Assembly: GCA_963969365.1 (NCBI GenBank)
Contig: OZ017750.1
Coordinates: 434,001 to 498,000 of the forward strand
Length of the DNA: 64,000 nucleotides
Reading direction: 5' to 3'
Source: Asterochloris sp. CNOR1
Taxonomy: Eukaryota > Chlorophyta > Trebouxiophyceae > Trebouxiales > Trebouxiaceae
Position numbers and translations under genes: made by a program. Below, one piece after another: positions 849 through 64,000 of the stretch (its first letter is position 1; each line of letters starts with the position of its first letter). The notes beneath the pieces were generated by a model. It was given only the letters and a program-made list of their open reading frames with translations, was not told where the DNA came from and searched no databases.

Positions 849-3800
849 AGGCACCATCAGGAAGCATATGGACAACTCCTCAGAATCACCCATGATTCTG
901 TACTTGTCAACGGGGACTGCCACAAACTGCAAAGCAAACGGCCTACCGCCAGGCCTGGAGCCTGAGGCCACCAGCTGCACCGTGCCATTCTGCCCGGTCG
1001 CATCCGCACGATTCATTCTGCCATAGTTGGTCCCATTGCAATCCCAGACCAGGGAGGCAGGGTCATCAGAAGAGGGCGAACGGGGCACCACCCTGGGATC
1101 CCTGACCTCCAGGGCAGGGTTGTGGTTTGATGTGAGAGACTCAGCAGACAGACTCTACCGCCTACCAGTCCTCAAGGCTTTGATCACAGATAATGAGCTG
1201 CCATGCACCACCACACAGGGTGGACTCATCAGATATTGACAAGAGGAAGGAGTGCTGAAGGCATGCAAAGGCAAGGGGTCCCTGAAACCCCCGTGAACAA
1301 CAAAGCTGCAAACACAGGGAACACAAGACAGGCAGCAGCTGCCAATCCACAAAGCCTCCTGCTGCAGAGGGGCAGACCAAGATATGGTCCTGAGGTGCTG
1401 GTTGACAGGCGGAGTCTCTTTGCCCCACATGCGACTGCTCCCAGCCCGCCAGCCTGATCTCACTCCCCTTTGCACAAGTCCACTCTAAAGGCCTCCACAG
1501 TCAGGCAGCAGGTGCACAATGGTAGTAGGACAAAGCTGAGCAAGTATGCAGCCCAAACTCACCACCCAGAACTTCAGGCCGCTTATGCCTCTGGAGGAAG
1601 GGCGTGTGCTCTGGACCAGGAGCTCAATGTACATGGAGCCGTACTGCAGCCCCGGCTGGACCTTCGTGTAGCACAAGTGCGGGGCATCTGGCGCAAGGCC
1701 GTCCCGAGACTTCCAGGCCATCTTCAGGCCACCCTCTGCTTCTGCAGTTGCTGTGCACCGCCCACGCTCCAGGAGGAAGCCCAGACTGTGGCCCTCTGGG
1801 TGGGGGCTGTTGAAGCTTGGCGGCGGCCTGCGCGGGCGGCCCTACAGGGACAGGGCAGGGCAGGGGAACTGAGGGTCCCAGCCAGCAGGCGTGCCCTGGT
1901 GTACCAAGAATTGCATGGGCGCCATGCGAGGTATGAGATCTTTCAACAATCAGGCATGTCGTTGCACGTTGGGTTGGCGGCCTGGCTTTCCTGCAGGAAC
2001 CAGGGCAGGGCAGGGCCCAGGCCTGGACCCAGAGGGTTGGGTCTGTTGGCTTACGCTGGTGCACCAAGTCTTGCTGGCTACAGGGCCTGGTAAGCAGCTT
2101 GCTGTTCCTGGGTCAGGTCTGCAGGGTGCAGGTGTGCACAGCAACTGCACGCTGCCTGGCAATGCAGCGCGCCCCACATGCAAGACACACACGACTGCCA
2201 GCCAGAGGTGTGTGAAAGAGTCCCATCACGTGGACATGCCCCAGAGTTCTGAGCTGGCAGATTGGCTTGCCTGTAGGGCCATGGTGACCTCCCGCATGCG
2301 AGTCTCCCGTCCCCTCCCTCGCTGTCCCCCAAGTTGCTGGACCCAGCTGCTGAGCCTGCATCCAAAGGGAGCTCACGATTTACTGCTCAACCGCTTCAAT
2401 TTGGTGGGAGCACTAGGCTATGCACATACAGCCTTTGTGGTTGAGGCTGCAATTGCACCATACAGCAAGAGCAGGCTGCAGAGGTGCATGCAGATGCCAT
2501 CAGCTATGTCATCAGTTTGCAGCCGTGACTGTATCAGCAGCTTTGCTGGGCCTGCAGGGCAGCTGTTCCTGTGCTCAAGCGGGCAGGCAGGGCAGACTGG
2601 CAGGCAGTAGCAGCAAAGCAGGATTCATGTCTGCTGACACCAATCATGCGCGGAGGAAGTTAGCTCCAGCAAGGCCGAACACCACCATGCACAGCTCCTG
2701 TGTGACGGGCAGGTCCCAGGAGTGGTGCTGGACAGCCGGGCAGCAGGTGATCAGCACACACCTGCGACTGCCAGAGGCTTAGCAGCCTTGCCCTCTTTAG
2801 TAAGCAGCAGGGACCTGAAGGCATTTGCGAGGTACTCCTGAAGAGCACAGGGAACTGTGGGAGTGCAGCAGCACAGAGGACTTGATGCCGAGAGTGCAGC
2901 AGCACGCAACACCTGATGCAAGGCCCGCATATTGGTGGGTACGGCCTGCCACAGGACACGGCTTCTGCTGTACGCCATGTCTGCTGTATGCCGGATTTTA
3001 TGCAGCGCCCACTCCTGAATGGCTATGCCTTCAGCAATGACAGGCAGCCAGCAGAGCAGAGGCATGAGTGCTGAGGCATGTCCCCACAGCAAATCATGCA
3101 GCATGGAGGGTGTTGGTACGACAGCCAGACAGGTCAGCCAGGCAGATCAGCCAGGCGAAGCCTACTTCAGGGTTGTGTCAGCTGACAAGGACGCACTATG
3201 AATGGTTGCTCCTCACCTTGGTGACGTCCAGGCTCATCAGCCATGTGTTCTGCTCGACCCTGTCCAGCAGCATGGTCAACCCGAGCTGGGGTAGTCTCAC
3301 GCAGGGCAGCAGCTGCAGGAGGAACATCCGCAAGCTCAGTCAGCATGCAGGGAGCACACTGCCCTGCTGCCATCTGCCGTGACATGATGGCAGGTGACCA
3401 GTCTGCGGAACACGACTGTGCTCATACCAGGAGCCTGTGCACTGAGTGTCAGTTGGTAAGGGCCAGCGGAACAACCCAACAAACAAGAGCAACTCTCCTG
3501 GGCTACAGGGTTTTGATCTGACCAAGCACCTCTTCAACCAAGGTGGTACTGGGCCTCACCCTCTCCATGACAGAATCTCTCATGCCATTGCTGGCGGAAT
3601 CGATGGCAACACCCATGGCACTATTGCTCTTCTGCAGCTGTGCACGCTGTATGTATGTGTCGTATTGCCAGGCTGCTGTCAGCACGGCTGATTCATTGGC
3701 CACCTGCACGTATACCGCGCAAGTGTGAGATGCACACTAGGAGCATGCATGCTGATGTGGAAGCTGGTATGACCAGCACCAGCCAGGGGTCCAGCAAGGC

Positions 3801-8185: not shown

Positions 8186-8284
8186 TTGTGTGTTCAGGAT
8201 TGCAACAGCTTCATGTCCCGGCAATGGCAGATCAAGCTCAGCTTGTTTCTGAAATGTTCCACTTTCGCCCACTCTTGGCCTGCG
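8186..8284. promoter_or_regulatory. Shared promoter of lumen protein and CIA30
   Basis: Only 99 bp separate the two divergent start codons (12 bp if the upstream ATG at 8272 is used). Any core promoter must be shared or overlap the opposing 5' UTR. No TATA-like box is evident. Inferred from spacing only. Confidence 0.45.
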
Positions 8285-9705
8285 ATGTTCAAGTGGTTAG
8301 CCAAGGAGACGCAGACCTATCTGAGTCGAGGTGGAGCACACATTGGTGCCCAGGCAAAGCTCTCTCCATGCACATCTGACATGCCGACCTCTCTGTTGCA
8401 GCTAGGGATCCAGGCAACCTAGGCGCCAGCAGCAGCCTGCTCTTCAAGTTTGCCAGTCAACAAGACTTATCACAGTGGAACGTCTTCTCAGATAAAGAGC
8501 ACGGTGGCAAGTCAGAGGCAGAGCTGCATCTGGCAGATGATGAGCCTGTGAGCTGCCTGTGTTGCACCCAAGGCATGACTGCCAATGCTGGCCGTGGCTG
8601 ATCCGGGTGGCCTTGCTGATCTGGTGCTCAAGCTGCTGTAATGAGCAGCACGCGGCCATCTCGTTGACAATGAGCAGCTGCTCGCTGCAGGACACTGCCT
8701 GCTTCTCAGGCAGGATAGACAGCCAGCTGGCTGAGGCCAGCGACCCCAACGCGAGAATACTCAAGCGCAGCGGCTTTGCCGGCATGAACTCTGAGGTAGG
8801 ACAGGCTGCAGTGAAGCACGTGCTGTGGTCAGCCATCAGGGATGCTACGCCAGCTGGATGCCTTGCCAGCAAGGCTCTGGCGCAGAGAACTGGCAGCACC
8901 TGTGGCATTGCCAGCCAGCGACGGCATCATTCAGTTTTTGATCATGAAGCCATCAGGTGGCAGAAACAGCTGCAGCAGGCCCCTGCTTTGCATCTGTAGT
9001 TTCCAGCCATTCTGTGCTTCGTTGCGGCAGAGAGCTTGAGACAGCCTCACATATGCTGATCATCCACCTTGAGTGTCCATGCAGGAGCGGGAGTATCTGG
9101 ACATTGACACCTATGACCACTTGGTGTTCCGGGTGAAGGGGGATGGGCGCAAGTACATAGCCAGCCTGCGTACTGACAACTGGATCATTGGCGGGCGTTC
9201 TCACGACGTCTGGCAGGCCTTCCTCTTTGCCAGGTGGGCTTGCTGCTGCCCACGATGGCCCAAGAGGGTGCTGTTTGCATCTAGCCCTGCAGAGAGGGAC
9301 AGGGCCATGCTGAACTGCACAGTGCATTGATCACCCAGGCCGGTGCATCCCCACTGGCCCAGCCTCCCAAGCTGCACTGGCCTGCAGCTGATTCCAGTCT
9401 GAGGTGCTCACTGGTGGCAGCTGTGCTGCAGGAAGGGGGGGTGGCAGGAGGTCAATATCCCGCTGGATAGATTCCTGCTCACCTGGCGGGGCAAGCTGGT
9501 GGACAGCGAGCAGCAGCTCAACCCTCAACGCATTGTTAGCATTGGTATTGCATTGGCAGGTGGGGACAGCATGCGGGATCAGGGGCCTTTCAAGCTGGGG
9601 CTGGACAGTATCACAGCTGTGCGCCTGGAGAGTGGCCTTGTTGAGAACGCAAGGGAGGACATAGCCGGAGCGTATGAATATATGAGAACTCATGTGCCCA
9701 AATGA
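8285..9705 (+). CDS. CIA30: CIA30 / NDUFAF1-family complex I assembly factor
   Basis: Family members help assemble the membrane arm of mitochondrial complex I; some plant and cyanobacterial relatives act in plastids. Exons: 8285-8330, 8402-8547, 8691-8795, 9085-9233, 9435-9705; 238 residues, all phases agree. Start ATG gives MFKWLAKETQTYLSR, where the family usually begins. The CIA30 fold is seen in LLFKF, DLSQWNVFSDKEHGGKSEAE, FSGRIDSQL, YDHLVFRVKGDGRKYIAS, DNWI, HDVWQAFLFA, IPLDRFLLTWRGKLVD and SIGIALAGGD. There is no obvious long presequence in exon 1, so its compartment is open. The stop is 105 bp before the next gene on the same strand. Confidence 0.92.
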
Positions 9706-9810
9706 GGGACTGCTGTGGGCTCCCGGAGGAGCATGAAGGTCAAAGCTGCATGCCTGAATTGTTCATGCATGCAGCATTTGCAGGTTGACTTCGAAGTCAA
9801 ACATATCCAG

Positions 9811-10543
9811 ATGCTCAGAGTCGGCCTTGTGGCCGACACTCATGGCGTCTTTGATCCCCAGACAGAGCCACTCTTTCAGGGTGTTGGACTCCTTTTGCAT
9901 GCCGGTGATGTGGGGCACCATGGAGGTCATGAGGGTAAGCTCTATACATGATTGCAGCTGTTCAAGACACACCTGTTTCATCTGCTGTTCTGCAGAGGTG
10001 CTAGCGGCCTTCACAGCACTCCACCCAACACAGGCTGTGCGGGGCAATGTTGACGAGGCTGCCCCACTTGCTGTGCTCCCAGAACACAGGCTGCTGCAGC
10101 TGAATGGGTGGCGCGTGCTGCTGCTGCACATATGCGGTCTGCCGCCCAAGCTGGACCCTGCAGCAGAGCAGCTCGTGCGGCAGCAGCTGCCAGATGTTGT
10201 GGTCTTTGGTCACAGCCACAAGCATGGTGCTGCAGTGGTTGACAGGCGCCTCTTTGTGAACCCTGGGGCTGCAGGTAAACAGTTTGTTGCCTGAGCTTGC
10301 TGGCCATGGGCTTTGGCAGCAGGGGCAGCACGCCTCAGCCCAGCCTGAGCGTATTGCTATTGGCATCCTGCAGGCGCAGCAAGGTTCAGGCTACCCAGGA
10401 TGGCAGCCACTCTCCGCTTGCCAGAGCGAGCAGCCGATGTGTCACCCTCAAGAGACTGGGTAGAGTTTCATGTCCTGTCCAGCAAAGCGCCGCCACGGTT
10501 GACAGCTTTGGCCCTGGCAGCAAAATGCAAGAGAGTCATCTGA
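9811..10543 (+). CDS. YfcE/MJ0936-like metallophosphoesterase
   Basis: A calcineurin-like phosphoesterase, probably a two-metal phosphodiesterase or phosphatase of unknown substrate. Exons: 9811-9934, 9996-10274, 10374-10543; 190 residues, phases agree. Metal-binding motifs appear in family order: DTHG near residue 9, LLHAGDVGHHGG, VRGNVDE, LLLHICG and VVFGHSHKH, then NPGA. The motif usually read as HG(H/D) is HICG here. The last exon supplies ARFRLPRMAATLRL, a normal C-terminal strand of this family. The start at 9811 is the methionine directly before the first strand (MLRVGLVADTHG); an upstream acceptor at about 9783 leaves open a further 5' exon. Confidence 0.88.
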
Positions 10544-11709
10544 GGGCTACAAGGGTGTCGCTCAGCAGCATGGTGTCACGACGGCTGAGCACTGTCTTAT
10601 AGTGACTGAGGGCTTGCTGCCTGTGGGCCTTCCTTGTGCAGAAAGGCCTCTGCGTGTGTGTGTACATTGTCCCATTCATAACTGCAAGCATTTCATGATG
10701 ACGATATCTTCAGAATGCAGTCTTTGTAGTGCCTTGCTCAGATATTGTTCGACTATCTTTCGAGTTGTCCTGTGAATGTCCCTTGTGGAAGAGGCTCTCT
10801 GAGGGACCATGAACTTACATATCAGGTTGGGGGCAGCAGTGCCTGCTGGCTGATGCCGCCAGGCAGCAAGCTGGCACTCCTGACCGCAATACTAAGTCAG
10901 GCTGCAAATGATCAGCTGGAAACAGCGCTCTTGAGGTCTTGGACACATCCGAGTAGCAGCCCAGACACACAATTGATGTCGGCAGCCACACTGATTAGCC
11001 AAGCATGGCATGGCAGCTTTACATCACATGTGGTGACTTCTGCATCACATCGGACAGGAGAAGGACTCCTGAGGGTTGAGTCCAGCAGGAATGGCGGTGT
11101 CTCGTCATTAGTTGAAGTGCCGAAGTTCCTAGTGTCTCAGGTGCAGCAGGCAATGCCCATTGTCAGGCAGCCAGCAACAGCATGAGCCCCCTTGAAACAT
11201 CTCCTGGTCTTGGGACGCTCCTTGCAGTCAGCGAACAGGGCAAGCCGCTGCAGTTATTTACTCTAATTGGCGTGCATTATGGTATCATAGCAGCAGCTGC
11301 TGTGCTCTGCATGAAAATTGCCTTCAGTGCACAAAAGTCCCAGTGCCTCACAGCATACATCCTGCAGATGCAGCCAGGGGCAGTGAACAAATAGGTAGCA
11401 CATCAGGCGCTTCATCGAGGCAAAAATGCCCCGTGAGACCTGCCTGTTGGACTGAGAGCTGCCATGGCGGCAGAGCTGTCTCCCTTTCTGCCAACGACAT
11501 CGGCAGAGAGTCTGCCAACACCACCACCAGGTCCTTATCACTTGGAAACGTTGCCCCACTCACCAGTTAGTGAACCGGGTCACTCAGATGCAGATTGAAA
11601 GCGTGTAGGTCAGTTGACTAAAGTCAAATGAGCCAGATCTTAGAGTGCTTGAGTAAGTAAGTGCTTTCCAATAGCTGCTGCTGCTGCTGTGCTCACCACC
11701 TAGGCATCC
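10544..11709. other. Intergenic, about 1.17 kb
   Basis: Holds the 3' UTR of the phosphoesterase and the promoter of the elongase. A 146-codon plus-strand frame at 10745-11185 has no recognisable domain and no splice context. A short GT-rich patch lies near 10655. Confidence 0.5.
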
Positions 11710-13621
11710 ATGGAGGCTATTCGTCAGTGGCTCATTAGTCCAGGAGCAGATGCAAGAGTTAGCCAGTGGCCCCTTGTGGGCAACTGGAAGATACCTGTAG
11801 CTCTGTCTGTGCTGTGTGAGTCCATCTCCAGTACAGTTCTGGTTGTTCCTGTTCAACACATGATTGCTTACTGGCGCCGCCTGCTGTGTGTGCTGCAGAC
11901 GTGATTGGGATTCCCATTGGCAAGCGCCTTATGAGAGATCGTGAGCCTTTTAACATGAGGACCCCCACAGCACTCCATTCAGTCAACTTGTTCATGCTCT
12001 CCCTCTACATGACGCTGGAGTGTGCCAAGCAGGTAGCCATGCTGCAGGCACAGGGCTACACAGAACATGAGCTGCCATGTGACCAATGCGGCCCTCTGTC
12101 TGGCTTGTCGAGATTCTGCTTCTTTTTTACCTTGAGCCTGAGCTGTGCTTGCATGTCCTAGCAGTGGCGTTTTGCAGCGGCTGGCACGACCAACCAAGGC
12201 CTCTGCATTCCCTGAGTGCAGGCTTATGAAAATTTTCGCTGGAAAGATGGGGTTAGGCTGTGGTGCAACCCAGTGGAGAAGGGTCCAGGCTTCAGCGACT
12301 CTGGGTATGCAATGGCCCGCATCCTGTGGATCCACTACCTTTCTAAGGTGAGGCGGCCATGCTCCCGCATGCTGTTGCCGTGCACATCCATCCTGTCATG
12401 CAGGGCAGGAAGCTGGCCATGTTGCTGCAGTGGGTGCTGTTGTGATGCATCTCAGTGGTACGCTGCTGCCCACAGGCATACGAGTTTGTCGATACCCTCA
12501 TCATGATCCTCAAGAAAAACAATCGCCAGATCACCTTCCTCCATGTCTACCACCATGTGAGCTTCTGGGCAAAGGCCCATGCCTGCTGCCTGCGGCCTCC
12601 ACATGAGGACCCACATACCTTTCAGCACTTTTGCAAACATGCTGAGAAGGCCTCTGTCTCCCCTGCTCACAGGCCAGCACCTTCTTCCCTGTGTGGTTTG
12701 CTGTGGTGAAGTACGGTGAGCCAGGACTGCTGTGCTGGACAGCCATGGTGCTGACTGCACGCCAGTGTCTGTTCAGCTGGAGGTTGATTAACAGCTCACA
12801 GGCTGCACGGCTGGCCAGCTCTGGAGCGAGCGCTCTCAGCGGCTGCTGGGCTGGCCAGGCTGTTGAACAAAGCCTCCTTGAGCTTGTCAGCATCTCTGTA
12901 CTTTGCCTGACATGCTTCTCGCGTCTGTTGCAGGCCCCGGGGGAGAGGCTTGGTAAAGCTCATCAGCCACTTTGACTTTGCCACCTACCAAATGTGCTGC
13001 CTCATCAACAGAGGGGAAGCCCTATGCAATCTGCAGTGGCTGCTCTCAGTGCACAAGACCCCAGGCACAGCACTATTTCACATGGGTGTCTGTGCAGGTT
13101 CTGCTGTGCCCTCAACAGCGCTATACATGTGTTCATGTATGGATATTATACCTGGGCAGCCTTAGGCGTGCGCAGCCATGTGGTGAAGCAGATGGTGACG
13201 ATGTCCCAGATGGTGCAGTTTGTGGCCTTGATCTCTCAGGTGTCCAAACAGTTGTCACTTCTGCTGACGGCAGTCTGCCAGACTTGGTAGCCTGCAGCAT
13301 GCTGTGGCCTGCACAGGCAGCTGCTCTATGCTTGCTGAATGGTCAGGCTGACGACTTCAGGCATGCCTCACGTCTTACCTCCGCTTTGCTGCCTGCAGAG
13401 CGTGTACATCCTGATCATCAAGGATTGCTACCGGCCGCGCATCTCACCAGCAATGCTGCTGGTCCAGTGCACCATCTTCCTGCTGCTGTTTGCAAACTTC
13501 TTCAGGTGAGTGTCCTGCCGTCTGCCCCCACGTCTGGTGTTCCTGAGGTCATGCAAGTTGTGTTCCCTGCAGGCAATCGTATCTGAAACCCAAGCGCGAA
13601 ACACAAAAGAAGACAGTGTAG
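11710..13621 (+). CDS. ELO-family fatty acid elongase (3-ketoacyl-CoA synthase)
   Basis: An ER membrane condensing enzyme that extends acyl-CoA with malonyl-CoA in very-long-chain or polyunsaturated fatty acid synthesis. Exons: 11710-11815, 11899-12032, 12222-12347, 12476-12556, 12673-12715, 12944-12962, 13098-13239, 13399-13505, 13573-13621; 268 residues, all phases agree. Family landmarks: FVDTLIMILKKNNRQITFLH, the histidine box HVYHH at residues 145-149, and ALNSAIHVFMYGYY. Several hydrophobic segments follow, including AMLLVQCTIFLLLFANFF. The C-terminus KPKRETQKKTV ends in a dilysine (KKXX) ER-retrieval signal. Exon 6 is only 19 bp and encodes PGGEA. Substrate preference cannot be read from the sequence. 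Confidence 0.95.
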
Positions 13622-13897: not shown

Positions 13898-16800
13898 CTA
13901 GTCCTCATCTAGCTCTGTCTGGATTTCCTTGATGAGCTCATCCCTATACTCCGAGAAGTACCCATCATAGCGCTCTATCTGGCCATCATCCACATGCCAG
14001 ATCTCGCTGCGCTCCTCATCATCACACACACGACTCAGCAGCTGAGAGTCGTGCGAAATGATGATCACACCACCCTCAAACTGCTCAATGGCGTCTGCCA
14101 GCGCATCAATGCTCTGGAGGTCCAGGTGGTTGGTGGGCTGCACAGCAAAGATATGCGGGCGCTCAGCACAATTAACACCAACTGATCAGCTGCTTGTCGG
14201 ACCTTCCTTATGCGGTGGCTGCAGAGAACAGGCAGCAAGCTGAGCAACAGGAGGTCTTGGCAGCTGATGCTGACTAAACCCTCAAACCACCCAGCAGTGT
14301 CCATGCCTCAGAGATCCAGGCAGCTGGTGGGCTCGAAAACAAAGCTCCACAACTTGGCATTGCTGCAGCCAGCCGCTTGCAGGAAGCACCGGCTGGACTA
14401 GGCCTGAGCAGGAAGGGACATGCACGCGCCCTTTTGAATCTGCTGCGCTCAAAGCCGTCAATCTCATCGCAGACATCTCAATAGCTTAGGCTCCCAGCAC
14501 CCACCTCGTCAAACAGGAGGATGTGGGGATTTGACAATGAGATGGAGGTGAAGACGACGCGCGCCTTTTGCCCACCCGACAGCTTGCAGATGGGCTGCAG
14601 ATGATGGTGCCCTGACAGGCCAAAGCGCCCCAACTGGGCCCTCATCTGCTCATTCTTGAGCCCCGACTCGGGAAACTTGTTGAGCAGGTACTCAATAGGG
14701 TTCACGTCCATCTCCAGGGCGTCAACAAAGTGCTGAGCGTAGCGCCCGATACGCAGTTTGTAGGACTTGCGGAAGTCGCCGTCGGTGGGCTGCAGGTCGC
14801 CTGCATGAGCAGGAGAGATGCAGAGCTGCTGAGTCTTGCTGAAGCATGCACGCACAGCTTTGAGTACTCCTGAGCGAGGCAGGGTGTAGCAGTTTGAGAT
14901 TTGCTTTCGCTGGGCTGCAGGTCGCCGACAGATGTGACTAGCTAGGCTGCAAAGGCTCAAGGGGTCCACAAAGGCTGCTTGTAAGATTTGCGGACTTGCA
15001 TGAGTCATTCCTGCTGAGCTGCAGGTTGCCTGCACGGGCAACGACTGATGATCAGGAATGACACTCAACAGCGACGCTGAGAAAGTAGCCCTCACTGTGA
15101 TGCAGGCCGCCTGTAGGGGAGGAGGATGTGATATAGAAGAGGCTTGCAAAGCACTGACATGCTCGGGTGAAGGGGTCGTAGTGTAGGTCTCTGACTGGCC
15201 GGTTGAACACGCAGCCAAATCGCCATCTGGTAGCACTGCATCCTGTGAACAGCTGCCCGGCATGCTGTTTGGAGATGAAGACGCTGTGACAGACTTGGGG
15301 GGTGACGCCTTGCTGTGCTGCAGAGCGCAAGGCTCATCTACAGGCCCTTGCAGATGTTCGTGTGTGAAGCTGGTACAGCCTTGTGCACTGCACTGAAGGT
15401 GCCAATCTGCGGTGTGCAGCTAGGTTCCCACCGGCACAGACAAGGCTGCAGCCATAAGCAGGCACTGACCTGCCAGCAGGTTCATGAGGGTGGTCTTGCC
15501 AGCGCCGTTGGGGCCCACAATGGCCACCCGAGACCCCATGTCCACACCAATATTGAGGTCCTGCAGGAGCATGAGTGCGCTTTGACACCTGTCACACGGA
15601 GACAGGCACAGCCTGGGCAGTGCCGGACCTCACATTGCTTCAGGTCCCTGAGAGCAGCTGGCTGGCAACAGAGTACAGAGATGTCCTGGGGTGCCCTTGT
15701 GGGCATGGCTGCATGATCTGTGCAGCAAATTTTTGCCCCTTCATCAGAACACAAAAACAACACAGTATTTTTGTTGTTCTGATGGACATCCTTTGCCCTC
15801 CATGCTATGTGCACTGTAAGTCTTTGTCTCATCAACCGTCCATTGGATGAAGTGCTTACCTAACTTGAACACCCATGTGTTCTGCAAGGACGCAATGCAA
15901 GGACATAACAGCCATGCCTCAGGGGCGATTGGAGTCACCGCAAACATTGCTCCGTACTCATCAATGCACTTGCATTAAGCGGGACTGCAAATTCAACACT
16001 CCAAACACCTCCGCAAGGCTTATGTCTTGGGATGGGCATTGTGCAGCCGCGATGCATGACGCTGAGAACAGTAGAAATGCTGAGAGCAAGCATGAACCAG
16101 CAGCCCCCAGCCATGATCCAAAGACCTCAGTTCCAGCGGCCAATCCTGATCACATGCGGCAGGGCAACCTCTGTACCAGTCCCCAAGCCTGCCTGGAAGC
16201 CTCACCTTGAGGCCAAAGTCCTCCCTGCCAGGGTACTTGAAGCTGACATCGTTCAGCTGGATGAGGGGCGGCTGCAGTTCCGTGGGCTCAGGGAACTCAA
16301 AGAAGACTGTGTAGTCGCTCCAGCGCCGTGGTGCCTCTGCTGCAGCATTGCTGTCATCTGGTGTGGGGGCGCCCTTCTGCTTCTTCTTCTGAGCAAACTT
16401 GGTGCTCTCTGTCACCTGCAGATTTTATGTTTGAAAACGTGGAGGGACTGCTGCTGCGTGCAGGTCTAGCAGAGGGGCCATTGCAGCTGCTTTGGACTGC
16501 ACTGCAGATGGCTTGAGTAAACTGAACCGACCACATGGCATTTGAGCAGGTAGGAGAAACTGAGCGGTGCAATGTGTATGGCCAGCAGCCTGCCGCAGTT
16601 GTTCTGCGTTGCAGCCCCTGCAGCCCTCAAGCCCTGCCTAACAGCAGGTTGGAGCAAGGCATCCACACATGTGCCCACCTTGTCCTGCTTGGCCTTGCTG
16701 CCACTCTTCTTGGCCGCCTTCATCTGCTTCTCATACTTATCTGCAGCCTTGTTCACCTGCAGGCAGGGATGCCAAGCCCTGGGGAATCTGTAGGCGGCCC

Positions 16801-32081: not shown

Positions 32082-32118
<37 letters not shown>

Positions 32119-46592: not shown

Positions 46593-49500
46593 TTATGCCA
46601 TGCAGCCCAGCACAGATCCGGTGCACACTGCCAGCAGCTGCAGGGCACACCAGCTTTGAGCTAGAGAAGCATCGGAGTTTGATGCGCTGGTGATCCATGA
46701 CTTCTGGGGTGGCCTTTTGCTGCTGCCTATGCAGGGCCAAGCACATGCAAAGCTTGACAGCTGAGTGTAACGCCCCACACCAGGTGACTCATCAGTGATG
46801 GCCTGCCAGCAATGCCCCTCTAAGTGTACATCTGCCTGATTGTCTGCGCAGGGCTCGACAATTAGCGAGATGCCTTACCGCTGTCAAATTATTGGGGCAG
46901 CTAACAGAGAGGGGGTGGAGCAAGGCCTGGCATTACTGCATCAGGGGACAACTGCCTAGCTCTGGTAGTAAAGTGTGTCGACCCAGTCAGCATTTGCCTG
47001 TCCCCGCCCCCTCCATATCCAGGATTGGGCAACACACAGGCAGCCACTGGCTCACCTTTGACCACACGGTAGTACTCCCCGGGTGGGATGCCGCCCTGCC
47101 CATACTTGCGAGCAGGGCTGGGCGGGGAGGCCTTCCCAGGAATCTCCAGCTCAAACTCCTCCTCAAAGTACTCCTGCTCGAGCGCCGCCTGATCCTCGTC
47201 CTCTGAGTCATAGGCGGGGGGCTGCCCCTCCCACGTCTCCTCCTCAGAGTCCGCTGTGGACTTCTCCTCCTCTTCCTCGTCAGACTTTTCCTTCTCCCAT
47301 GGCATGACTTTGGAGTCATCGTCAAGGGGCTGCTCCTCCTGCTGGCTGGGGCCAGGCTTGGCCTGCGCCTGCACCCCGCCTGCATACAGACAACTGAGTG
47401 AGGCTTCAGATCACAGCCTCTGACTGAGGATGGCCAAATGGGTCTGACCAAAGCAGACCCAGCCTGCAGCCACATGAGCTTTTGCGTGATTGAGTATATC
47501 GGGCCGAGGAAGCAACAGGGTGGCTGTGCTGCTTGACGGGAGCAGGCTTTGCCTGCGGCAGCGCTTGCAGCCATGGTGTAGGGAAAAAGTAGTGATTGGT
47601 GGTTGGGTTGCAGGCCCAAGTTACAGACCTTGGGTGCAGGCATGCCATTGCTGCACACAAGCGATGCATCCTGGCATGAGCTGGATGCTCAGGCAGCCCT
47701 GTCAGCTCCAGACTGCGCCCCACATGTCCCCTGGCTGCCCTAAACAGCTTGCCCACATACTTTTGGCTACTGCAACCCAGACTGAGGCCTGCATGTGTCT
47801 TGCTGCCTTCGACATGACTTGCGCACTCACCAGCGACTGGCTCCTGCGACACTGGCGGCTGCAAACCAGCCTCCACTGAGTCTGCCTGTGGCTCAGCTGT
47901 GGGCGGCGGCCTCTCAGGCTCATGGTCCACTGTGGGCTCAGCCTCCACTGCAGGTTTGCCCTCGAGAGCCTTGCTGGCGTCTGCAGGTGCAGGCTGTGGG
48001 ACTAGCTGCTGCTCAGCTGCCTGGGGGCTGCCTGGCGCCTCATCTGAGGCAGTGGGGGGTACAAGGACTGCTTGAGGCTCCACAACCACCTGGGCCTCCG
48101 ATACGGCCGCTGGCCCCTGGTGTGTGACTGGATCCCGCTCATCCGCCGGGGTGCCAGGAGGCATCTGGACTGGCGCAGGCTTGCCAGCATCACTGACTGG
48201 TGCTGTGGCCTGCGCGCCTGCCTCAGGCTTGTTTGTTGCAGGCAGACCCTGCAGCTGGGCCTGCGCACCTGCCTCAGGCTTGCCGTCATCCCCGGCTGCT
48301 GCTATGGCCCATGCACCTGCCTCAGCCTTGCCTGTTGCAGGGGCACCCTGCAGCTGGGCCTGTGCACGGTAGCTGCCAGCCCCGGCTGATGGCAGCAGCC
48401 CAGCGCCTGTCCCAGCCTGTCGGCGCTGTGACTGTCTCAGAAGGTACTGCCTTCTGGGTATGTCCTCAGACAAGGCCTGTGCCAAAGCAGCTGGGAGCCC
48501 AGCAGCAGGAGGCTGGCCAGGTTCCCCAGCTGCTGCAGGTGGTCCAGCGGCAGGAGTGACCTCAGCGCGGACCGTCAAGTTGTCTGGCAGCCGCCCGGGG
48601 TCCCGCCCCAGCTCCCGGTACCGACACCGATTCTTGAAGGTGGCCAGCGCAAACCTCAGAGCCTCGTGCTGCACATCTTCGCCGAGGCCTTGTGTGGCAA
48701 CCTCAGCCAGTTGCATCAGGTGCATCAGCTCCTCATACTCCTCCATGGTGCCCATGGCGATGGGCGGGCCTGCAGGGTACGTCGGCGCATCTGGCTCGAC
48801 CTCCAGCTGAATCCTCCTGGCCGACGCAACAGCCTGCTTGGCATTAGCTAGGATGGCCTCAGCACGCCAGTCGCCCCGCTCAGCGAGGAGGGCTCTGCGC
48901 TGCTTGGGCAGCAGGGCAAGGGCGCTCTGCGAGGTTGGCAGGGCAGGCTGGCTCTGCGGCAGCTCGCTCTTTCCAAGGCCCCCGCCCAGGTTGAACAGGC
49001 CGCCCAGTCGATGCATGAGGCGCTCGATGACGCTGCGCTCAGGCTTCTGTTCGGCGGAGGCAGGACCTGATGAGGTGCCGGCGGCCCGAGAAGTGATAGC
49101 CGCTGCGACTGTGGCAGCAGCTGCCGCCCTCCCAGCAGCCTCTACCAGAGCAACAGCCTCTGCCACAGCCGCAGCAGCAGCAGCGGCACCCTGCGCTGAG
49201 TCGGCGACAGGCGGGGCTGCTATGACCTGCTCAGGGGCCAGCCCAGGTGCCGAGGGGGTACCTGGTGCCTGGCGCTTGTCTGCTGGCAGGGCAGCCTCCC
49301 CTGCGTCCCTTTGCAGCATGAGCTCCCCCAAGGGGCTGCTGTCTCTGTGCTGGTGGTTGGAGCGGAAGACCGCATCTTCCATGGCATCCCGCCCCTCTTC
49401 CCAGTTCATTTCGCGGTCCAGCACCTGCTCCAGAATCTCCAGCATCTCCAACTGCAGCAGGGGTCAATGCAGCAGAGGTGGGTCGCTGGGGAGAGCCAGA

Positions 49501-55203: not shown

Positions 55204-58200
55204 TCACTTGATGATGCGGCGCCACTCCCACTCCCCCTGGCCGTCCACCAGGCAGAGCTCGGCCACATGGTATTTCACCAGGGCTGGCCGCTGAGTGATG
55301 GTGACCAGAGTGATCCCCAGCTTGGCAGCGTGCTTGTACAGCTGCTCCTCAATGTCCACGCTGGTGGCATTGGTGCACTCATCCAGCACCCCGAACTTTG
55401 GGTGTTGATAGAACAGGCGGGCCATGCCAATGCGCTGCTGCTCCCCTGCATCAGGGTGCAGGAGCATGTCAGGCGGACCTGGGGGACGTCAGCTGCTAGT
55501 GAACTTGAGATGCTGTGCAGGCAGGCCATGCTGGTGTTCTGCTACTCGTTGATGGAGGCAGGACATCCACTTGATTCTGGTGGTCACAGCAAGGGCTGCC
55601 CTTGGGAGCAAGCCAATAGAGGCTGCTGGACCTGAGCTTCGGGAGCTTCAATTCATTTTCATGGGCAGGCCTTTTCCGCCAGAGGCGGCATGCGACAAAA
55701 ACCTTCAGCTGCCCATAGGAGCATGCTGGGGACGCTCCAGCTGTACAGCACTCACTGTGCCTCTCACCAGTGCAGCCCCCGCAACATACGTCTTTAGCAT
55801 GCCAGCCCGGCAGCCAGAATAGACCGCCAACATCCCTGCCATGCAGACCACTGTTGTATGCTCACCGAGGGACAGGGTCTCGCCCAGTCGCCACCACCAC
55901 CACCACCCCGTTCCACTAAACCACCAACATCCCTGCCATGCACATTGATTTGAGATGCTCACCAAGGAACAGGATGTCGCCCCAGTCAGCCATAGAATTC
56001 CACTAGACCACCAACACTTTTGAGATGCTCACCGAGGGACAGGGTCTCGCCCCAGTCAGCCACAGAGTTCCACCCACCCTCCCTCTTGACCAGGTAGGAC
56101 AGACGGACGACTCTCATGAGGTCATCGAGGCGACCCTCCAGCTGCCTGCGGCCCTCCTTGAGGCCCTCGCAGCCCTCAGCTGCCACCGCATCTGCCACGC
56201 TGACAGGGTAAATGACCTGCAGTGGGGAGCACAGGCAGAATCAAGATGCGCATTGGCAACTCCAGGCCCGGGCTTAAGACCTTCAGGTGGCAAGGAGGGT
56301 TGCAAACACACTCAGTTGCAACAGGGCTCACCGCCCTGGGCCAGGGTAGACGACTTGGCAGCAGTGGGGAAGGTGTGCAAGTTCAAGCAGCAAAGAGGAG
56401 CCCTGTGCACAGCCAGAACTGCACAAACCCTTAGCAGTTGCTGCATATGTATGCTGCCAGGGGCATAGCAGCTGGTGGAACTTTGGGGTTCCACAAAGTC
56501 CCAAAGGAGCCTGTTGCACAAATCGTGACATTGCAGCAAAACTTCAGGAAAAGAAAAGGAAAGGGGCACTACATGCTGCAGGCGTGGGGGTCCAGAAAGC
56601 ACCGCCATCAGCTGCTCATGTGATGCTTGCTAGTAGCAGCTGAGAATCTTGCAAGTCCCCTGCCAGCGATGGGTGACGAGCCTTTAAGCGCAGGTGTGCA
56701 GAGAGGCAGGCTAGGCAACTGCAGCAGCGGCCGTCATCCACAGCAGCAGGCCAATGCACACACACCTGTTCAAGCAGGGTGCCAATGGTGGTGTAGGGCT
56801 TCTGAGGCACGTAAAAGATGTCTGACATCTCCTTGCCATTCTGCTGGTGCACAGGTCTGCGCACCAGACCATCGCTGGTGGGCCAGAGACCAGCCAGAAT
56901 CCTGAACAGGCTGCTCTTGCCTGAGCCATTGGGGCCTGCACAGAGATGCAGCTGAAGGGTCCAGACAGATGTGTATGATACTGAGGCAGCTCATGCTGCC
57001 CAGGATCAAGGCTGCCACCCAGCCACAGTGCATGCTTGCTTCACCAGCGCAGCCCAACGGGCAGCCAACCTCGTCGTGCCCAGCAGCTGCCACACAGCAA
57101 TCGTCACACCATCCCAGAGCCATGAGATGCAGCACGGCATGAAGATGCGCCAGAACTGACCTGTCACCAGGACGCTGTTGCCGGGCAGGACCTGAAAGGA
57201 CAGTTCCCGGGCCAGCATCTTGCCGCTGGGGGTCACCACGTTGACCGCCTCAAACAGGATGCCCTCAGAGACGCTGGAGGAGCGCGCCCGGTGCAGCGAG
57301 GCGCTCCTCTGCAGGTTCTGGGACTTGTCCATGATCTCCAGCAGCTCCGACACCCTGCAGATAGGAGGCAGGCACAGCTTGCAGGCCGGCTCAGCAGCTG
57401 CCCTAAGTCTGTCGCAACTTCTTTTGCAGCTCTAGCGTGGCAGCACTCCCTTGCGACACGCAGCCTCGCTAGCGCTCCAGACAGAGGACCCCGGCCTTCT
57501 GGCTACCTGGGATCGTTGGCTGACTAAGTACATGCCGGCGCACAACTGGTGAGGCCCGCCCGATAGCTCGCCAAGCCCCTGTCAGTCACCAGCAGGTCTG
57601 TCACTGCACGCACCTGGTGACGCCCCCCGACAGCTCGGCAAAGCGCTTGTTGAGGGCCAGGAGCTCCCCAAAGGCTGTGAAGCAGTTGGAGACCACAGAG
57701 GACAGGTAGCGCATGTTGTGCACCAGCAGACCCTGCAGGCAGGACACAGGGGTGCTTGGCACAGGACTCTGCAGCTAAGGTGGGCCATGCTGGTCAGGCT
57801 GGGAGCACTGCTGGATTTTCTTTCTTTAGATGGCAGTATTGCCGGCACGTGCCAGCACCACCGTGCATGCAGAACAGAAACGGCATGGGCCATGGCTGGC
57901 AGTGCAAGACACAGGCAAAGATTTGTGTGGTGACGGGCAGTCCAAACACAGCGCAGACGTCAACAGAGCATCTGCCTGGGCAGACTCGATTGTGAGCAGC
58001 AGTAGCAACAGCTGGGAGGCCCATGTCTGATTCAGGCAGCAGGTCAGCTGAAGCGGTCTAGGTCATGGAAGACTGGAGCCTGCATTCCCTCTTATCAATT
58101 TATGCATGTCCTAGCATGGAGCCAAGCTGGCGCTTGCCACGCCTGCCACGTGCATGGGTGGCCCACCTGAACGGCAGGGTCCGAGAAGTTGCTCTGGTGG

Positions 58201-61200
58201 TCCATCGCATACAGCAGGGTGAGCCCCCAGGTCACATTGAAGGGCAGCTGCTTGGTGAAGAAGTCATCTGCCACAGCATATGGCCACCTGCAGGGAGCGC
58301 CAAATCGTGAATTGTCAGGTGGGTTTTGACAGAGGGTTTTGTCTGGTGTACATGAGCCTGAGGCCTGCCACATCCACAGGTGGCCTGTGGATGGCAGAGC
58401 TCCCCCAAGAAGGTGTCGCTGGGAGTGTAGCACACAGCAGTGCTAGACACCAAGGGGTGGGAAGGCTGGATGCATCAGGCCAGGGCCTCTGTGCACCACG
58501 TCGTTTAAAGCAGAGGCAATGCAGACTATACAGACAGGGAGGTGCCAGGTAAAGGGCACAAGAGATGCATGCATGGCAGTGCCAGCGGTCAAGAGTCAGA
58601 AGTCTGTGCGCGTCAGGCCAAGGCCTCTGTGCAATGGCTCACTAGCAGTAAACGGAGTGCAACATCACAGATGGAGCCCAGTCCCAGGTACGAGGCTGGA
58701 GGGGTCCAGCTTGCCCAATCATGCTGCACGCAGAGCCACACCTGATGTTGACGACTCTTCTGAGGTGGCCCATCAGGCTGTCATACTGGGCTGCCACTGT
58801 CTGGCCCTCCCGCGCACCGCCGCCAAAGAAGGCGATGGACTCAGCGTGTGTGCGCACCCGGGTGTGGATGTTCCTGCAGGTAAAGATTTTACATAGTACA
58901 TCAGCCACATTTGCAGCACATAATATCTCAAGTGATTCCCATGATCACAGCAAATCAGGTCCTATTAAACAGGAGCTAGCTGACCCCATGGCATGAGCCA
59001 GGTGGCTGCCTGCTTGATGTGTAGCCGCTGCAGCCTCTGCTGCCTCCCAAATGTGTCCAGGCAGAACCCAGATGCAACACCTGCTGTACCTGACTGCCAA
59101 CATGCTGAGCAGCAAGCAGGCATAAATAGTCTGAGATGACATGCCACATTACATGCACATGCTCAAACCACCAGGAGAGGTGACCACACCTGAATGCTCC
59201 CTCCAGGAAATATTCCTTCCCTGAAAGTGCGCCGAAGTCCGGTGTGACGCCCCTGAGGATGGCAAAGCCCAGGAAACTGTAGAGGTACAGGATTGCCATG
59301 CCTCGCCGGCCAGTCAACTTGTACAGGCGGAAGGTAAACCAGGTGATGTCAACCACAGGCTTCACCTGCAGGTGACGCAATATAGACTAGAAGCCTGCTG
59401 CTGAAGGCAACTCAATGGCTTGACGTACAGTGGGAAGGCAGAAACTGAGAACTGTTGTGGTGATGCTGATGGGTGCACAGGTAACATGAGCCTGACGATG
59501 AGATGCAGTGGTGACCGGGCGGCGGCACCCATGCAGGCTGGGGACATGTATGAAGAACAGCTAATAGGTGCGCAAGTGGTCATGCCCTGGGAGTTGGTAT
59601 GCAGTGGTGACCTGGCAACAGCAGAAGGCAGGTGGGGACAATGCAGTTCTTGACTGGACACGGACTCTGCGCGAACAGCCTGGGCTGCATTCTTGCAAGG
59701 CAGCATTGGGCCCAAAAGGTGCACAGTGCGTTGTTATCCTGTTGTTATTCTGTAGTAAGCAGACAGCTGCGCAAGGATGTGGCTGCAGCGCTTGCTTCTA
59801 GCACAGGTAGGTGCTGCATGATGAAAGCTCCAGTGGGCGGCTCACCATAGTTGGTATAAGCTCTGCCAGGTCAATGCAGAGGCGCTCAATATCCCTGGTC
59901 ACACGCTGGTCAACGTCCTGCATTCCTGCAGGGGAGTGCACAGACAGTCCAGAGATGCAGCCAGCAGGGGCGGCTCATGCACCAGCTGCAGCACAGCAGT
60001 AGCTGCATACCAAGCTGTATTTGACAAGCAGGGGTGTAGAACGATAGGGAAACAGGGTAGGGCCTTAACAAGCTGCACCGCACCTGACTGCTGGCAAGCC
60101 AGACAGACAACCACAAGGTGCACTGTGTCCTGAGAGACAGACAGGCATGCTTGGCACCTTTGCCAGCTGCGCTGCAGGACTAGGCTGCATGGCAGGCAGT
60201 GCAGGCCAACAGTAGGTGCACAACATCAGGGCACCGAGCTTGCTTGCCTGCCAGTTGAGCCACCGTGTAGAAGGTGTTGCCCTTCAGGTAGCGGGCATGC
60301 GCAGCTGCAGTCAGACGCCTGCACAGCAGCACGGCTGCCTTGTTGGGCCTCTTACGTGTAAGTAGTTCAAAAATTGGCATGGTTGCATTGCTATCAATTG
60401 ACGCTCATGCCAGGGCAGCCTGCGGTGCACAGCATGTGCTGGCAGGGCATAAGGTCCATGCATCGGACAATCAGGGACATATGCTCAGCCATCAGACCCA
60501 GACAGGCCAGAACAATGGGCCTGAAAATGAACTGCAGGCGCCCGCTAGGATATCTTGAGTGGGCGGTGCCAGCCGATGAGCATGGCAGCTTCCTGAAAGA
60601 GGAGTTTGTATGCTGTCCTGGCCTATGAAGGGCTGTGCTGGAAATAAGATGCAGAGACTGGCAGGCTGAAGGCAGTTCCCTGAATCATGAGCATGCTGCA
60701 AGGCCAGCAGGCTTTGCAGACAGCGCTCTTGGTTAAGTGCCCCAGCCTTTGAACCGACCAGAACCGCTGCACCAGCAGAGAGCTTTTTTGAACATTCAGA
60801 GGCTCCATTGTGCCTGCTGCATGCATAGGCTTGAAGTCTGTTGCACGCATACAGGCTGACTTGCGCCCTGTGCATAGGCACAATCCTTGTGGTACAACTG
60901 CAAACTCACTTGCGCCAGGTTAGCTGTGGTGCATATGCAATCTCACTTGCGCCAGGTCAGAGCCAGGGCATCTGCCACGTGCCGCAGCGTGGGCGCCAGC
61001 ACTGCCGAGGCTCCCGACTGCAGGACTGACAGACCAATGAGGCGCACGAAGGCCGAGCGGTCCTGCCGCATGACGTGCTGCACGGTGCGCCCGTTGAGGG
61101 AGGCGATGCGGTCCTGCGAAGGGCATGACAAAAACAGAGACTGTCCGGCTTGGATGCTGAGGTGCTCCTCAATGGCTGTCACAGCGTGCTTGTAGCTGCC

Positions 61201-64000
61201 ATTACATTCCTTGGCCTACTAAAGCTGGAGCGCATCTTAAGTGTGTCCAATGATTGAGAGATGCTGGCAACGAGGTGCAGGCCAAGTGCTGCCCAAGCAA
61301 CAGGTAGGCTCCTGCCAGCGTTGGCCCTTGAGCATGGCAGCTTCTTCCAGCTGCAGCCTCGCCGCTCTCCACCGCTGTCCTGTGCCACCACTGCCCTGCC
61401 CCCTTGTCTGGATGCAGCGCCCCACCTGGAGCAGGGTGCGCATGAAGACGACCCCCGCGATCATCCCCAGTTGGATGACCTGCCCCTTCATGTCGCGCTC
61501 GACCAGCTGCCGCCCCACGGCGCTCCACCGCTGCCACACAGTCAGCCTGCTGGGCTGGACCTCCTGTGCAGCCACCTCCGTCTGCAGGGCAGCCAGAGAG
61601 GTTGTAAACTTCTGAAAAGTGGGGCTGCCACAAAGGGCACCCCGCCGCAAAGCATTTTGCCTGTGGCCACCTCCAGTTGCAGGGGGGAGCCCGTGGGGGT
61701 GGCGCTGCCCTGATACAGAAACGCAGCGCTGCCACACAGTCAGGCTGCTGGGCTGCATTTGTAGTTGGGTCAGCCTGCTGGCATGTATCTCCTTCACAGC
61801 CACCTCTGAATTAAAGCCACCAGCGGGGCTCTTCAGTGCACGGGCGCCCTTTTCTGGGGAACGGGCAAGGGCGGCATGGCCATGACCTCACTTTGAAGCA
61901 ACCTACTTAGCTGCTCCCATGCACCCGGGTCATCACCCTGTCCAGATACAGGGTTCCCTGACCAGCACAAGCTCACCACTTGGTGCCAATCAGTGTCACG
62001 GAGGGGAGTCCAGAACACGGTCATCATCCCAGAATAGGGCCACGGCCTTGCCATGCAGCCCAGCCCGCCATGCCGTGCCAAACAGCTTCGTAACGGGGCG
62101 TGCGGGCCGCTACCTACTCCCAACCTGGGGCCATGGCCTTTGCTATGCAGCCTGCTCACCACCCGGTGGCGGACAGCGTCGTAAGGGGGTGCCCGCGCCA
62201 CGACCTTCTCCCGAGCGCTGCCGCTGTCCTCCAGGACGCGGCCCTGGCCGCTGGCAGAGGACAGGATCATGCGCATGCCCTGCAGGTTGGCTGCTGCGTC
62301 GCCGCCACGAGCGCGGGCCGCGCTGGTGCCCTCCTCACCCTCCTGGTCTGCAGGCAGCCCACAACTAGGTCAGAGCTTCCAGCCACAGCCTGAGTCTTGA
62401 GCGGTTCATGCAACCCTTGCTTGCTCCGGCCGCTCTGTGGCATGGCGACACCATTGTCCCGAGCCAGGCGATGGCCACGCAGACGCCTGCCAGATGAGAA
62501 CTTAGGTGCTTGGGATGTTTTCATGCATTGCCAAGTAGGCAGCACAGCCCAAAAGCCAGCAGCCTGCCTTCCGGCTCAGAGCTGCTGCTGCCCAGCAGCT
62601 CATGGGGGCCCTCCTTGCCAGGCTTTCAGGCTGCGTGCAGTGTTGAGCAAAAGCCAACTGCAGACCCAGAGGGAGTGGTGCCCTGGCCCGTAACTTTGCT
62701 CACTTCAACATATGAGCAACACCCTCTGTCTGTGCTGCTTGTATTGCACTGCGGTCAAACACCACAGACAACCATCGGAAAAGGATTCACCTGCCGGCCC
62801 CGAGCCGCCGCTGTCCAGCAGCTCTGGTTGGCCACCTTCGCTCTGAGCCCGCGCCCCACGGTGAATGCTCCAGCCCCCTTCCCCATCCAGGGCCAGCACC
62901 AGGTCATGGAAGGCCACCAGGGCTGGGCGGTGACTAATCGTGACACAGGTGCAGCCAAGCTCCTTAACCTTACTGCAGAATCGTTCCTCCATGTCCACCT
63001 GCAAGCAGCAAGAACAGGGGCGTGTTGGTGCGTGTCTTGACCCCCACGACCGGGGCAGGTAGCCAGGAGTTGGGGCCTGCATGTTACCTGCAGGCAGCGG
63101 GTCATGGCCAGTGATGCTGTGCTCAGTGCAGGCAGCCTGAGGTTGAGGCCTGCATCTGCAGGCCCAGGCAGAGGGCCAGATGCGGTGCTGCCCTAGAGCA
63201 AGGTGTGTTTCAAGGGCACATGCAGCCAATGTGAGGTGTAGTGGTCGGCCAAATATCTGCAAACATGGGCTCTGTTGGTAGCTGCTGCACTCACTACAGG
63301 CATAGGGCACGCATGCGACACTGTTGAATCATCTGCCTGCCGGCAAGGGGAGTCTGAGCTTCAACTTGCCATCGTACTGCTGTAGACAGCCTGAAGCTGA
63401 GATGCTTGGAGCCTGGTGCATGTCCATCAGCTCAGAACAGCTAGCAGAAATGACCCGTTGAAACATGGCCCTCCTTCAGTCCAAAGACAAGGCACCGGGG
63501 TCCACCTGCTGTCAAGGTGTGCCTGTAAAATCCCAAATTTCAATGCATGCTGCAGGACACTGCCACGCATCATAGCAAACTGCAGCCCAGCTTTCCCTCT
63601 CAGGGGGAACAGCCACTTACAACACACGGCAGGTCGCACTGCCAAGAAACCTCTTCTGGTTGGAGGTCAAGGCATCAAGCCACAAGCAGACTAAGCAATG
63701 CAGGCCCACCGTGACCCCGCTGGTGCACTCGTCCAAAATGGCAAATTTGGGCTTGTGATAGAAGAGGCGGGCCATGCCCAAGCGCTGCTGCTCCCCCAGG
63801 CTTAGCACCTCACTCCAGTTCACCTGCATGGTGCAAATCAGATTCTTCAGTGCTCATGGTCTGGCACTTTCTGCTGCCTAGTGAGGGTCCACATGCCCAT
63901 GCTCTCTTGCCGAGAAGCTAAAAGCTGCACCACCCTAGGCAGACTCCAGACAGTGAAATCAGCACCGAACAACTGGGCTGGAGGCATGAGCAAGCAGAAT
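55204..64000 (-). CDS. Full-length peroxisomal ABCD transporter (COMATOSE/PXA1 type), 5' end outside window
   Basis: Imports fatty acyl-CoAs and related compounds into peroxisomes for beta-oxidation. Fifteen exons in view (minus): 63710-63823, 62791-62998, 62160-62347, 61426-61581, 60947-61113, 60248-60318, 59846-59925, 59190-59365, 58742-58873, 58167-58287, 57614-57732, 57161-57354, 56766-56935, 56033-56216, 55204-55445; 773 residues, all phases agree. In view are the end of NBD1 ([44 protein letters not shown]), a linker, the second membrane half ([26 protein letters not shown]) and NBD2 ([44 protein letters not shown]). Both halves carry LSLGE in place of the usual LSGGE, as plant COMATOSE does. 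TMD1 and the start of NBD1 lie to the right of the window. One intron uses a GC donor. Confidence 0.95.
55856..56085. repeat. Three copies of an exon 3' edge with donor
   Basis: The end of exon 56033-56216 (codes [14 protein letters not shown]) plus its donor has diverged copies near 55958-56005 and 55856-55915. Both keep a GTGAGC-type donor. The flanks CCACCAAC(A)... and TTGAGATGCTCAC are shared. Confidence 0.85.
60901..60960. repeat. Duplicated donor edge
   Basis: CTCACTTGCGCCAGGT occurs at 60943-60958, where it is the end of exon 60947-61113 with its donor, and again at 60905-60920, 38 bp away in the intron, as an exact 16-mer. Both would code TWRK or its remnant followed by GTGAG. Confidence 0.9.
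61505..61810. repeat. Copied acceptor-side exon segment
   Basis: The 5' part of exon 61426-61581 ([19 protein letters not shown]) has a diverged upstream copy at about 61722-61806 that would read [13 protein letters not shown]...[24 protein letters not shown] is shared exactly. Confidence 0.8.
61965..62190. repeat. Three copies of an exon 3' edge with donor
   Basis: The end of exon 62160-62347 with its donor (plus GCTCACCACCCGGTGGCGGACAG-like) has copies near 62035-62100 and 61968-62005. Intron sequence next to the donor (GGGCCATGGCCTTTGC versus GGGCCACGGCCTTGCC) is copied too. Confidence 0.75.

Follow-up and report, generated by a model that had tools for sequence, protein, structure and literature searches.

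Many introns of Asterochloris sp. CNOR1 hold decayed, old copies of an adjoining exon's edge. In the window, by which we mean the whole 64,000-nucleotide stretch analysed (contig positions 434001–498000), 22 of the 107 predicted introns had a flanking exon edge copied within them at an ungapped score of 28 (+2/−3), in agreement with the roughly twenty introns of an earlier preliminary description. Over the entire sample, 69 of 438 introns did so, and the comparison stretches outside the window showed the same copying. At the stricter score of 40, which was also counted, 8 of the 107 window introns had such a copy. We consider it likely, with a probability of about 0.7, that these copies derive from old tandem duplications whose positions were independent of exon borders, and that they have stayed recognisable longest where one member is an exon edge under selection.

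The sample consisted of the window and twenty stretches of 10 kb each, chosen at round coordinates from 13 contigs, together 264 kb or ∼0.5% of the genome (56.4 Mb, 21 contigs). All gene models were predicted from DNA alone by a purpose-written generalised hidden Markov gene finder, self-trained on the window and 24 genome stretches (L001–L024), so the introns and exon borders described here are predicted ones. Training converged on 46 genes with 453 introns (median 308 bp). Four 3-kb stretches, L001–L004 (15 introns), were used in training and in the shuffle test of edges and were excluded from the later counts, which rest on the 438 introns in 264 kb. Introns below 80 bp were left out, the floor being 120 bp for the shuffle test of edges, 60 bp for the register test and 150 bp for the self-similarity and fixed-target tests; exon edges too short for a query were left out of the edge scans. 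The 453 introns had the donor consensus CAG/GTGAG and the acceptor consensus CTGCAG/G. The acceptor signal was long and strong, with T at 0.91, G at 0.93 and C at 0.98 ahead of AG. G+C in the window was 54–64% (2-kb bins), and the chlorophyll a/b-binding family had 31 matches in the genome, which together with the spliced genes marks a photosynthetic eukaryote. Genome size, G+C and intron size were similar to the values for Asterochloris glomerata given in the accessible part of PMC6652019 (56 Mb, GC of 56–62%, 9 introns per gene, gene length of 4240 against an mRNA of 1400).

Seven gene models were obtained in the window. Residues 196–743 of model 3 align to ABCF1 (PDB 5zxd), which we take to be the human protein. 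Other models matched the Pfam families BTB, CIA30 with metallophosphatase and ELO, ABC_membrane_2/ABC_tran, biotinyl and RAP, and one had an AIR carboxylase match below Pfam's cut-off; models 4 and 6 had no Pfam match. The CIA30, metallophosphatase and ELO elongase domains lie in a single model (8285–13621), probably two to three genes fused by the gene finder. Model 6 contains a polyglutamine-coding run of AGC triplets (32082–32125, 14.7 copies). Model 7 is several genes merged, with a stop at one junction. Codon positions were counted in models marked complete only; model 7 was counted as complete, and its phase is possibly wrong in places.

We compared exon edges with the adjoining introns against several controls. 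With dinucleotide-preserving shuffles, a comparison proposed in the preliminary description and run here on the sequences used in training, the edges were in clear excess: 16 of 97 acceptor and 16 of 97 donor edges of the window reached p ≤ 0.01, as did 30 of 315 and 30 of 315 in the rest of the sample. Rates against real introns of other genes were close to these (0.155, 0.165, 0.108 and 0.105). As the rates are alike against shuffles and foreign introns, the excess cannot be put down to the CTGCAG richness of the introns. Per 10 kb, the window had 11.8 local direct repeats with offsets of 25–400 bp and the other stretches 7.9, while the shuffle and cross-locus controls gave 0.21 and 0.13. 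Using 60-bp queries taken from the exon only, we found that 26 of 413 donor and 23 of 410 acceptor edges were copied in the adjoining intron, and that 21 of the 30 gene models having five or more introns had at least one copy. The same queries matched foreign introns at 0/413 donor and 1/410 acceptor edges, and the reverse complement of the same intron at 0/413 and 0/410, so the copies are in direct orientation only. Exon segments 100–160 bp from the border gave no match to the adjoining intron (0/152 and 0/157). The intron at the opposite end of the exon was matched in 1 of 224 and 0 of 225 cases; the copies are thus local to their source.

Significant self-similarity was present in 62 of 378 introns taken alone, in 110 when their own exon flanks were attached and in 66 when the flanks came from other genes. 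Composition bias had been named in the preliminary description as something that could inflate weak cases, and the length and strength of the acceptor consensus would lend themselves to such matches. The foreign introns and the swapped flanks, with their near-zero gain, rule out that the matches reflect composition, whether the CTGCAG richness of introns or the splice consensus itself, and we give this reading virtually no chance.

The 236 repeat pairs comprised 129 between an exon edge and an intron, 70 within introns, 19 within the same exon, 15 intergenic and 3 others. The fraction of bases lying in a repeat copy, outside the window and in it, respectively, was 0.076 and 0.095 for exon edges, 0.054 and 0.062 for intron interiors, 0.029 and 0.087 for exon interiors, and 0.019 and 0.006 for intergenic DNA. 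Six of 63 intergenic pieces of 400 bp were self-similar (p ≤ 0.01) outside the window and 0 of 7 inside, compared with 0.140 and 0.204 of the introns without flanks.

Duplications were also found inside exons, where they obey the reading frame. Of the 19 same-exon repeats, 18 had an offset that is a multiple of 3 (p = 3e-8), compared with 27 of the 70 intron-intron repeats; this contrast also served as an internal check of the gene models. In-frame coding tandem duplications of 84 bp (45875–46046, minus strand), 99 bp (48170–48367, minus strand) and 21 bp (46249–46308) were observed in exons of low-complexity protein regions. Offsets between exon edges and their intronic copies were without frame preference (remainders 0, 1 and 2 in 30, 36 and 34 of 100). 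Reading through to the copied donor met a stop in 10 of the 19 phased donor matches and stayed open in 9; these stops and the frame-free offsets disfavour the copies being unannotated coding sequence.

The copies are best illustrated by individual loci in the window. At 55949–56073 (minus strand), the 3′ edge of an exon and its donor are copied 70 bp downstream in the intron, with a 55-bp ungapped match at 89%; the gapped length of 75 bp against an offset of 70 bp is as expected of a tandem unit, and both donors read GTGAGCATCTCAAA. A 43-bp tandem pair at 44546–44635 (minus strand, 87%) likewise reaches a donor border. Other exon 3′ edges recur at offsets of 27, 95, 148 and 232 bp within the intron that follows (33515–33799, plus strand) or 223 bp downstream (62567–62824, minus strand). 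On the acceptor side, all on the minus strand, the intron before an exon repeats that exon's 5′ part 198 bp away (61526–61755, 94% over 32 bp), two pieces of the 5′ part of another exon have copies 122–123 bp away in its preceding intron (41188–41414), and the 5′ edge of an exon of the ABC-F gene, within the ABCF1-aligned region, has copies 125 and 229 bp away (14782–15040). A diverged tandem array with a period of ∼47 bp and larger fills most of one intron and touches the exon (27227–27516, minus strand). Outside the window, an intron array with an offset of ∼72–74 bp runs into an exon at L005:6177–6340 and has the best score of 102 gapped pairs.

Two loci had been put forward in the preliminary description as near exact. 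The first, at 39575–39775 (minus strand), is the end of an intron, together with 6 exonic bp, repeated 109 bp deeper into the intron; 39575–39666 matches 39684–39775 at 82% over 92 bp (gapped length of 97 bp), and the match is intron except for those 6 bp. The second is a donor border (14 bp of exon and 22 bp of intron) that recurs 37 bp into the intron (60888–60960, minus strand), where 60888–60923 and 60925–60960 agree at 86% over 36 bp. Both are clear, but neither is near exact. At the left end of the span described earlier, the pair 1851/2001 (1851–2015) is a weak one, 15 identical GGGCA-rich bases within a single intron, and involves no exon edge. Copies lay in five of the seven window models. 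The eight genes of the preliminary description are plausible given the merged model 7.

Over the whole sample, 36 of 49 exon-edge copies had offsets of 67–148 bp, within the 40–150 bp described earlier, but the remaining 13 were at 170–371 bp. An edge with a copy typically had one rather than the two to six claimed: at a score of 24, 68 edges had one, 18 had two, 5 had three and 2 had four, among 823, and the control gave 9 edges with one. Nor do the copies usually keep GT or AG. Among copies reaching to within 6 bp of the border, the dinucleotide was in register in 13 of 28 (8/17 donors and 5/11 acceptors), which is not beyond neutral decay (simulated for GT only, see below). Most copies were diverged by 15–25%, with a median score of 33 and 7 of 49 at ≥92% identity. 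None of the 64 pairs of at least 40 bp exceeded 93% identity (four were at 90–93%), and 0 of 12 TRF arrays with a period of at least 30 exceeded 92%; some shorter pairs were identical, e.g. 28 bp at 55858/56025. Mismatches at codon positions 1, 2 and 3 were 0.157, 0.148 and 0.224.

The similarity is concentrated at exon borders. Edge segments were copied in 48 of 714 cases and intron segments of equal length in 43 of 1860 (∼2.9-fold; odds ratio of 3.0, p = 3e-7), whereas foreign-intron controls gave 1/714 and 5/1860. In this sample, similarity is thus greater at borders than elsewhere in introns, the reverse of what the preliminary description named as its refutation. The excess was greater at donors (26/361 against 16/930) than at acceptors (22/353 against 27/930). 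In the copies, similarity was ∼0.7 on the exon side and ∼0.3 from 10 bp beyond the border, identity past the donor being 0.42, 0.32 and 0.36 in successive steps. This halt of the homology at the splice junction had at first suggested to us a junction-specific mechanism, such as duplication targeted to AGGT or to transcription- or splicing-linked breaks, or selection of the copies as decoys or alternative splice sites.

We therefore simulated placement blind to borders. Tandem duplications were placed uniformly over introns and borders and allowed to decay, with introns free to change, exons codon-constrained and splice sites kept. Settings were chosen by hand: relative change of 0.10 at codon positions 1–2 and 0.70 at position 3, a mean indel of 4 bp, 60% deletions, a unit median of mostly 90–100 bp and one event per intron; the indel ratio of 0.17 in the final simulation came from gapped alignments of this sample. 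The simulated edge-to-intron ratio was 1.9–5.0 at ages of 0.18–0.25 (2.5 at 0.20 and 3.6–5.0 at 0.22–0.25), against the observed 2.9 (bootstrap 1.9–4.4). At ages of 0.20–0.25, identity past the donor was 0.43–0.45, 0.32–0.33 and 0.30–0.31, close to the observed steps; GT was retained in 0.47–0.55, comparable to the 8 of 17 donors; mismatches by codon position were 0.135–0.146, 0.132–0.153 and 0.204–0.221; the median score was 35–39 and the share at ≥92% identity 0.13–0.14. Restricting the age to 0.22–0.25 narrowed the mismatches to 0.143–0.146, 0.143–0.153 and 0.210–0.221 and the median score to 35–37.

Since border-blind old duplications reproduce both the edge excess and the drop past the border, the pattern does not require that borders or AGGT were targeted, and in this model a border-specific mechanism would have nothing left to explain in our sample. 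The 2.9-fold edge excess, the fall of similarity to background within ∼10 bp past the border and the prominence of the donor side could all be cited for such a mechanism; the neutral level of GT/AG retention and mismatches of ∼0.15 at codon positions 1 and 2, which mark the copies as unconstrained coding-wise, count against it. We regard it as improbable.

The edge excess, its local nature, the frame filter within exons and the scarcity of near-identical long pairs are observed in the sample; border-blind placement, the age and the number of events are suggested by simulation. Together they point to the following. Many short tandem duplications, mostly at offsets of ∼70–150 bp, would have landed irrespective of exon borders. 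Inside exons only those in frame survived; in introns or across borders they would be tolerated because one intact splice site remains, and the spare copy would turn into intron, so lengthening it. Most detectable duplications would be old, the exonic copy having since been held by selection while intronic copies drift. Because selection would hold exonic copies while both copies of an intronic pair decay, an edge excess would arise without border targeting: pairs with an exonic member would be recognisable longest, and their similarity would seem to end at the splice junction. The exon edge may thus be a fossil anchor, neither a target nor a functional decoy. At the molecular level, the duplications presumably arose when staggered breaks were filled in and joined, or through slippage during replication.

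Several results do not sit easily with this account of border-blind duplication and selective preservation. In 44 gapped pairs with both kinds of column, several of which overlap within a single array, exon-intron identity (0.740) was hardly above intron-intron identity (0.718), where a larger gap is predicted, though local alignment favours similarity. The difference between donors and acceptors is not predicted by a symmetric model. Homology length agreed with offset in some well-kept pairs (75/70, 47/43, 97/109, 98/114 and 64/63), but over the 102 aligned pairs of the 236 the ratio of length to offset ranged from 0.19 to 3.2 (5th–95th percentile) with no correlation (r = −0.12), gapped extension lengths being unreliable where alignments are long and weak. 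Exon-edge offsets begin at 67 bp, while a quarter of the intron-intron offsets are ≤63 bp. Finally, the age was fitted after a constant-rate simulation had failed, and to the very data it explains; its best value varied with the statistic, ∼0.2 from the ratio and 0.25–0.3 from score and mismatch. These adverse results hold our confidence at the level given above and do not overturn the account.

That constant-rate simulation had ages even from zero. It gave a ratio of ∼1, mismatches of ∼0.09, 0.10 and 0.14 and copies that were too similar, with ∼42% of edge matches at ≥92% identity against the 7 of 49 observed. The four pairs of at least 40 bp at 90–93%, among 64, would fit some younger events, but we lend little credence to steady ongoing duplication. 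A single age of ∼0.2–0.25 substitutions per site per copy appears most compatible with the decay model. Matching the edge rate of 0.067 then took 0.66 events per intron at an age of 0.20, 1.02 at 0.25 and 1.7 at 0.30, which suggests ∼0.7–1 duplication of ∼100 bp per intron; at ages of 0.20–0.25 the events would together make up between about one fifth and one third of a median intron's length. With ages spread above a floor of 0.15, the corresponding value was ∼2.6 events per intron (0.067 divided by 0.024–0.028).

The lack of young pairs may reflect either a pulse of duplication or a collapse of young duplications before they diverge. In the first case, a genome-wide pulse of ∼100-bp tandem duplications, narrow in time and about one per intron, would have supplied a fifth to a third of intron length and then nearly stopped. 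Intron growth would have been episodic and independent of transposons, with exon edges as its datable record. We hold this only tentatively, at well under even odds. In the second case, a variant of our main account and not exclusive of it, duplication would be ongoing, and recombination or slippage would usually collapse young near-identical copies again, sparing those that had diverged enough; preservation would still account for the border pattern. Such a process fits the missing young class, and ages spread over 0.15–0.8 or 0.2–0.8 also gave fitting mismatches (0.12–0.14, 0.14 and 0.21–0.22) with ratios of ∼2.4 and 4.9. It would require collapse far faster than substitution for 100-bp repeats, and we find it possible but rather unlikely.

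The preliminary description had also raised slow intron growth by tandem duplication, which our data support. Among introns with flanks, self-similarity was found in 0.414 and 0.529 of those >350 bp and in 0.111 and 0.159 of the shorter classes, although length itself aids detection. Introns with copies were longer (451 against 303 bp), a raw comparison in which a larger target favours the longer introns. When the target was fixed at 210 bp, edges were copied in 28 of 265 cases for introns of at least 400 bp and in 14 of 335 for shorter ones (p = 0.003), as growth by duplication predicts; the trend with intron length was non-monotonic (0.062, 0.019, 0.064 and 0.165).

Creation of introns by duplication across an AGGT, by contrast, is far from the pervasive process proposed there and would be a rarity at most. 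The one clear candidate is the 70-bp predicted intron 24321–24390, within ∼68-bp tandem units at 24302–24430 (plus strand; TRF period of 68, 81%). It aligns to the preceding exon (score of 57) and to the following exon (58), and the exons align to each other (50); its register score is 50, with every control below 28. No other intron in the sample had this full layout, and we regard it as a candidate for an intron born by tandem duplication. A second, 40298–40477, is weak (scores of 30 and 26). In the donor-acceptor register test, 4 of 434 introns reached a score of 24, against 0.12% of control comparisons; at scores of 14–20 the similarity equalled the control (82/434 or 18.9% against 19.0% at 14). 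This control-level similarity rules out intron creation as the general cause. These counts would limit the process to ∼1% of introns here, and it is scarcely credible that most of these introns were born from AGGT-bearing exon segments, as in the Rogers model. The interpretation in the preliminary description is thus partly supported.

How introns lengthen where transposons are few is, to our knowledge, poorly understood. If one copy from every duplication across a border is kept as an exon edge, the rate, unit size and age of intron-lengthening duplications could be read from one genome, with codon positions 1 and 2 acting as a clock; the test requires only gene models and a decay simulation. 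It also follows that finding intronic copies enriched next to exon borders does not, on its own, point to a splice-linked mechanism.

Tandem duplication is an established model for the origin of introns, as the accessible parts of PMC4974935 and PMC2891723 describe. Reported gains of the Rogers type, across an AGGT, include ATP2A1 (Hellsten 2011) and potato RdRp (both in the part seen of PMC4974935) and Drosophila cases (PMC2891723, likewise in part). The candidate 24321–24390 has the layout expected from these sources, with exon homology on both sides at an offset of about the intron length, but that layout is exceptional in our sample. Within-gene tandem duplications spanning parts of exons and introns, as cited in the consulted portion of PMC4974935, are likewise filtered by their effect on the product; in contrast to them, we observed partial exon edges inside existing introns (69/438), mostly old, with intron creation rare. 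In rice, short tandem insertions are attributed to inexact break repair (Vaughn and Bennetzen 2014, as described in the available section of PMC7407515). These natural insertions resemble the duplications here in being local, 10–1000 bp long and tandem or nearly so, whereas most copies here are 15–25% diverged and near-identical long pairs are missing. Introners, going by the excerpt of PMC9860276, also change intron content genome-wide and possibly in episodes, but in our comparison of edges and local repeats no shared element was seen: edge similarity is confined to the adjoining intron and cross-locus repeats are at background. Among the titles and abstract openings listed, none described exon-edge copies pervading adjoining introns. 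Set against these systems, what the present case adds is the density of such copies in this genome, an age spectrum weighted towards old copies, and the case for reading exon edges as possible fossils of intron growth.
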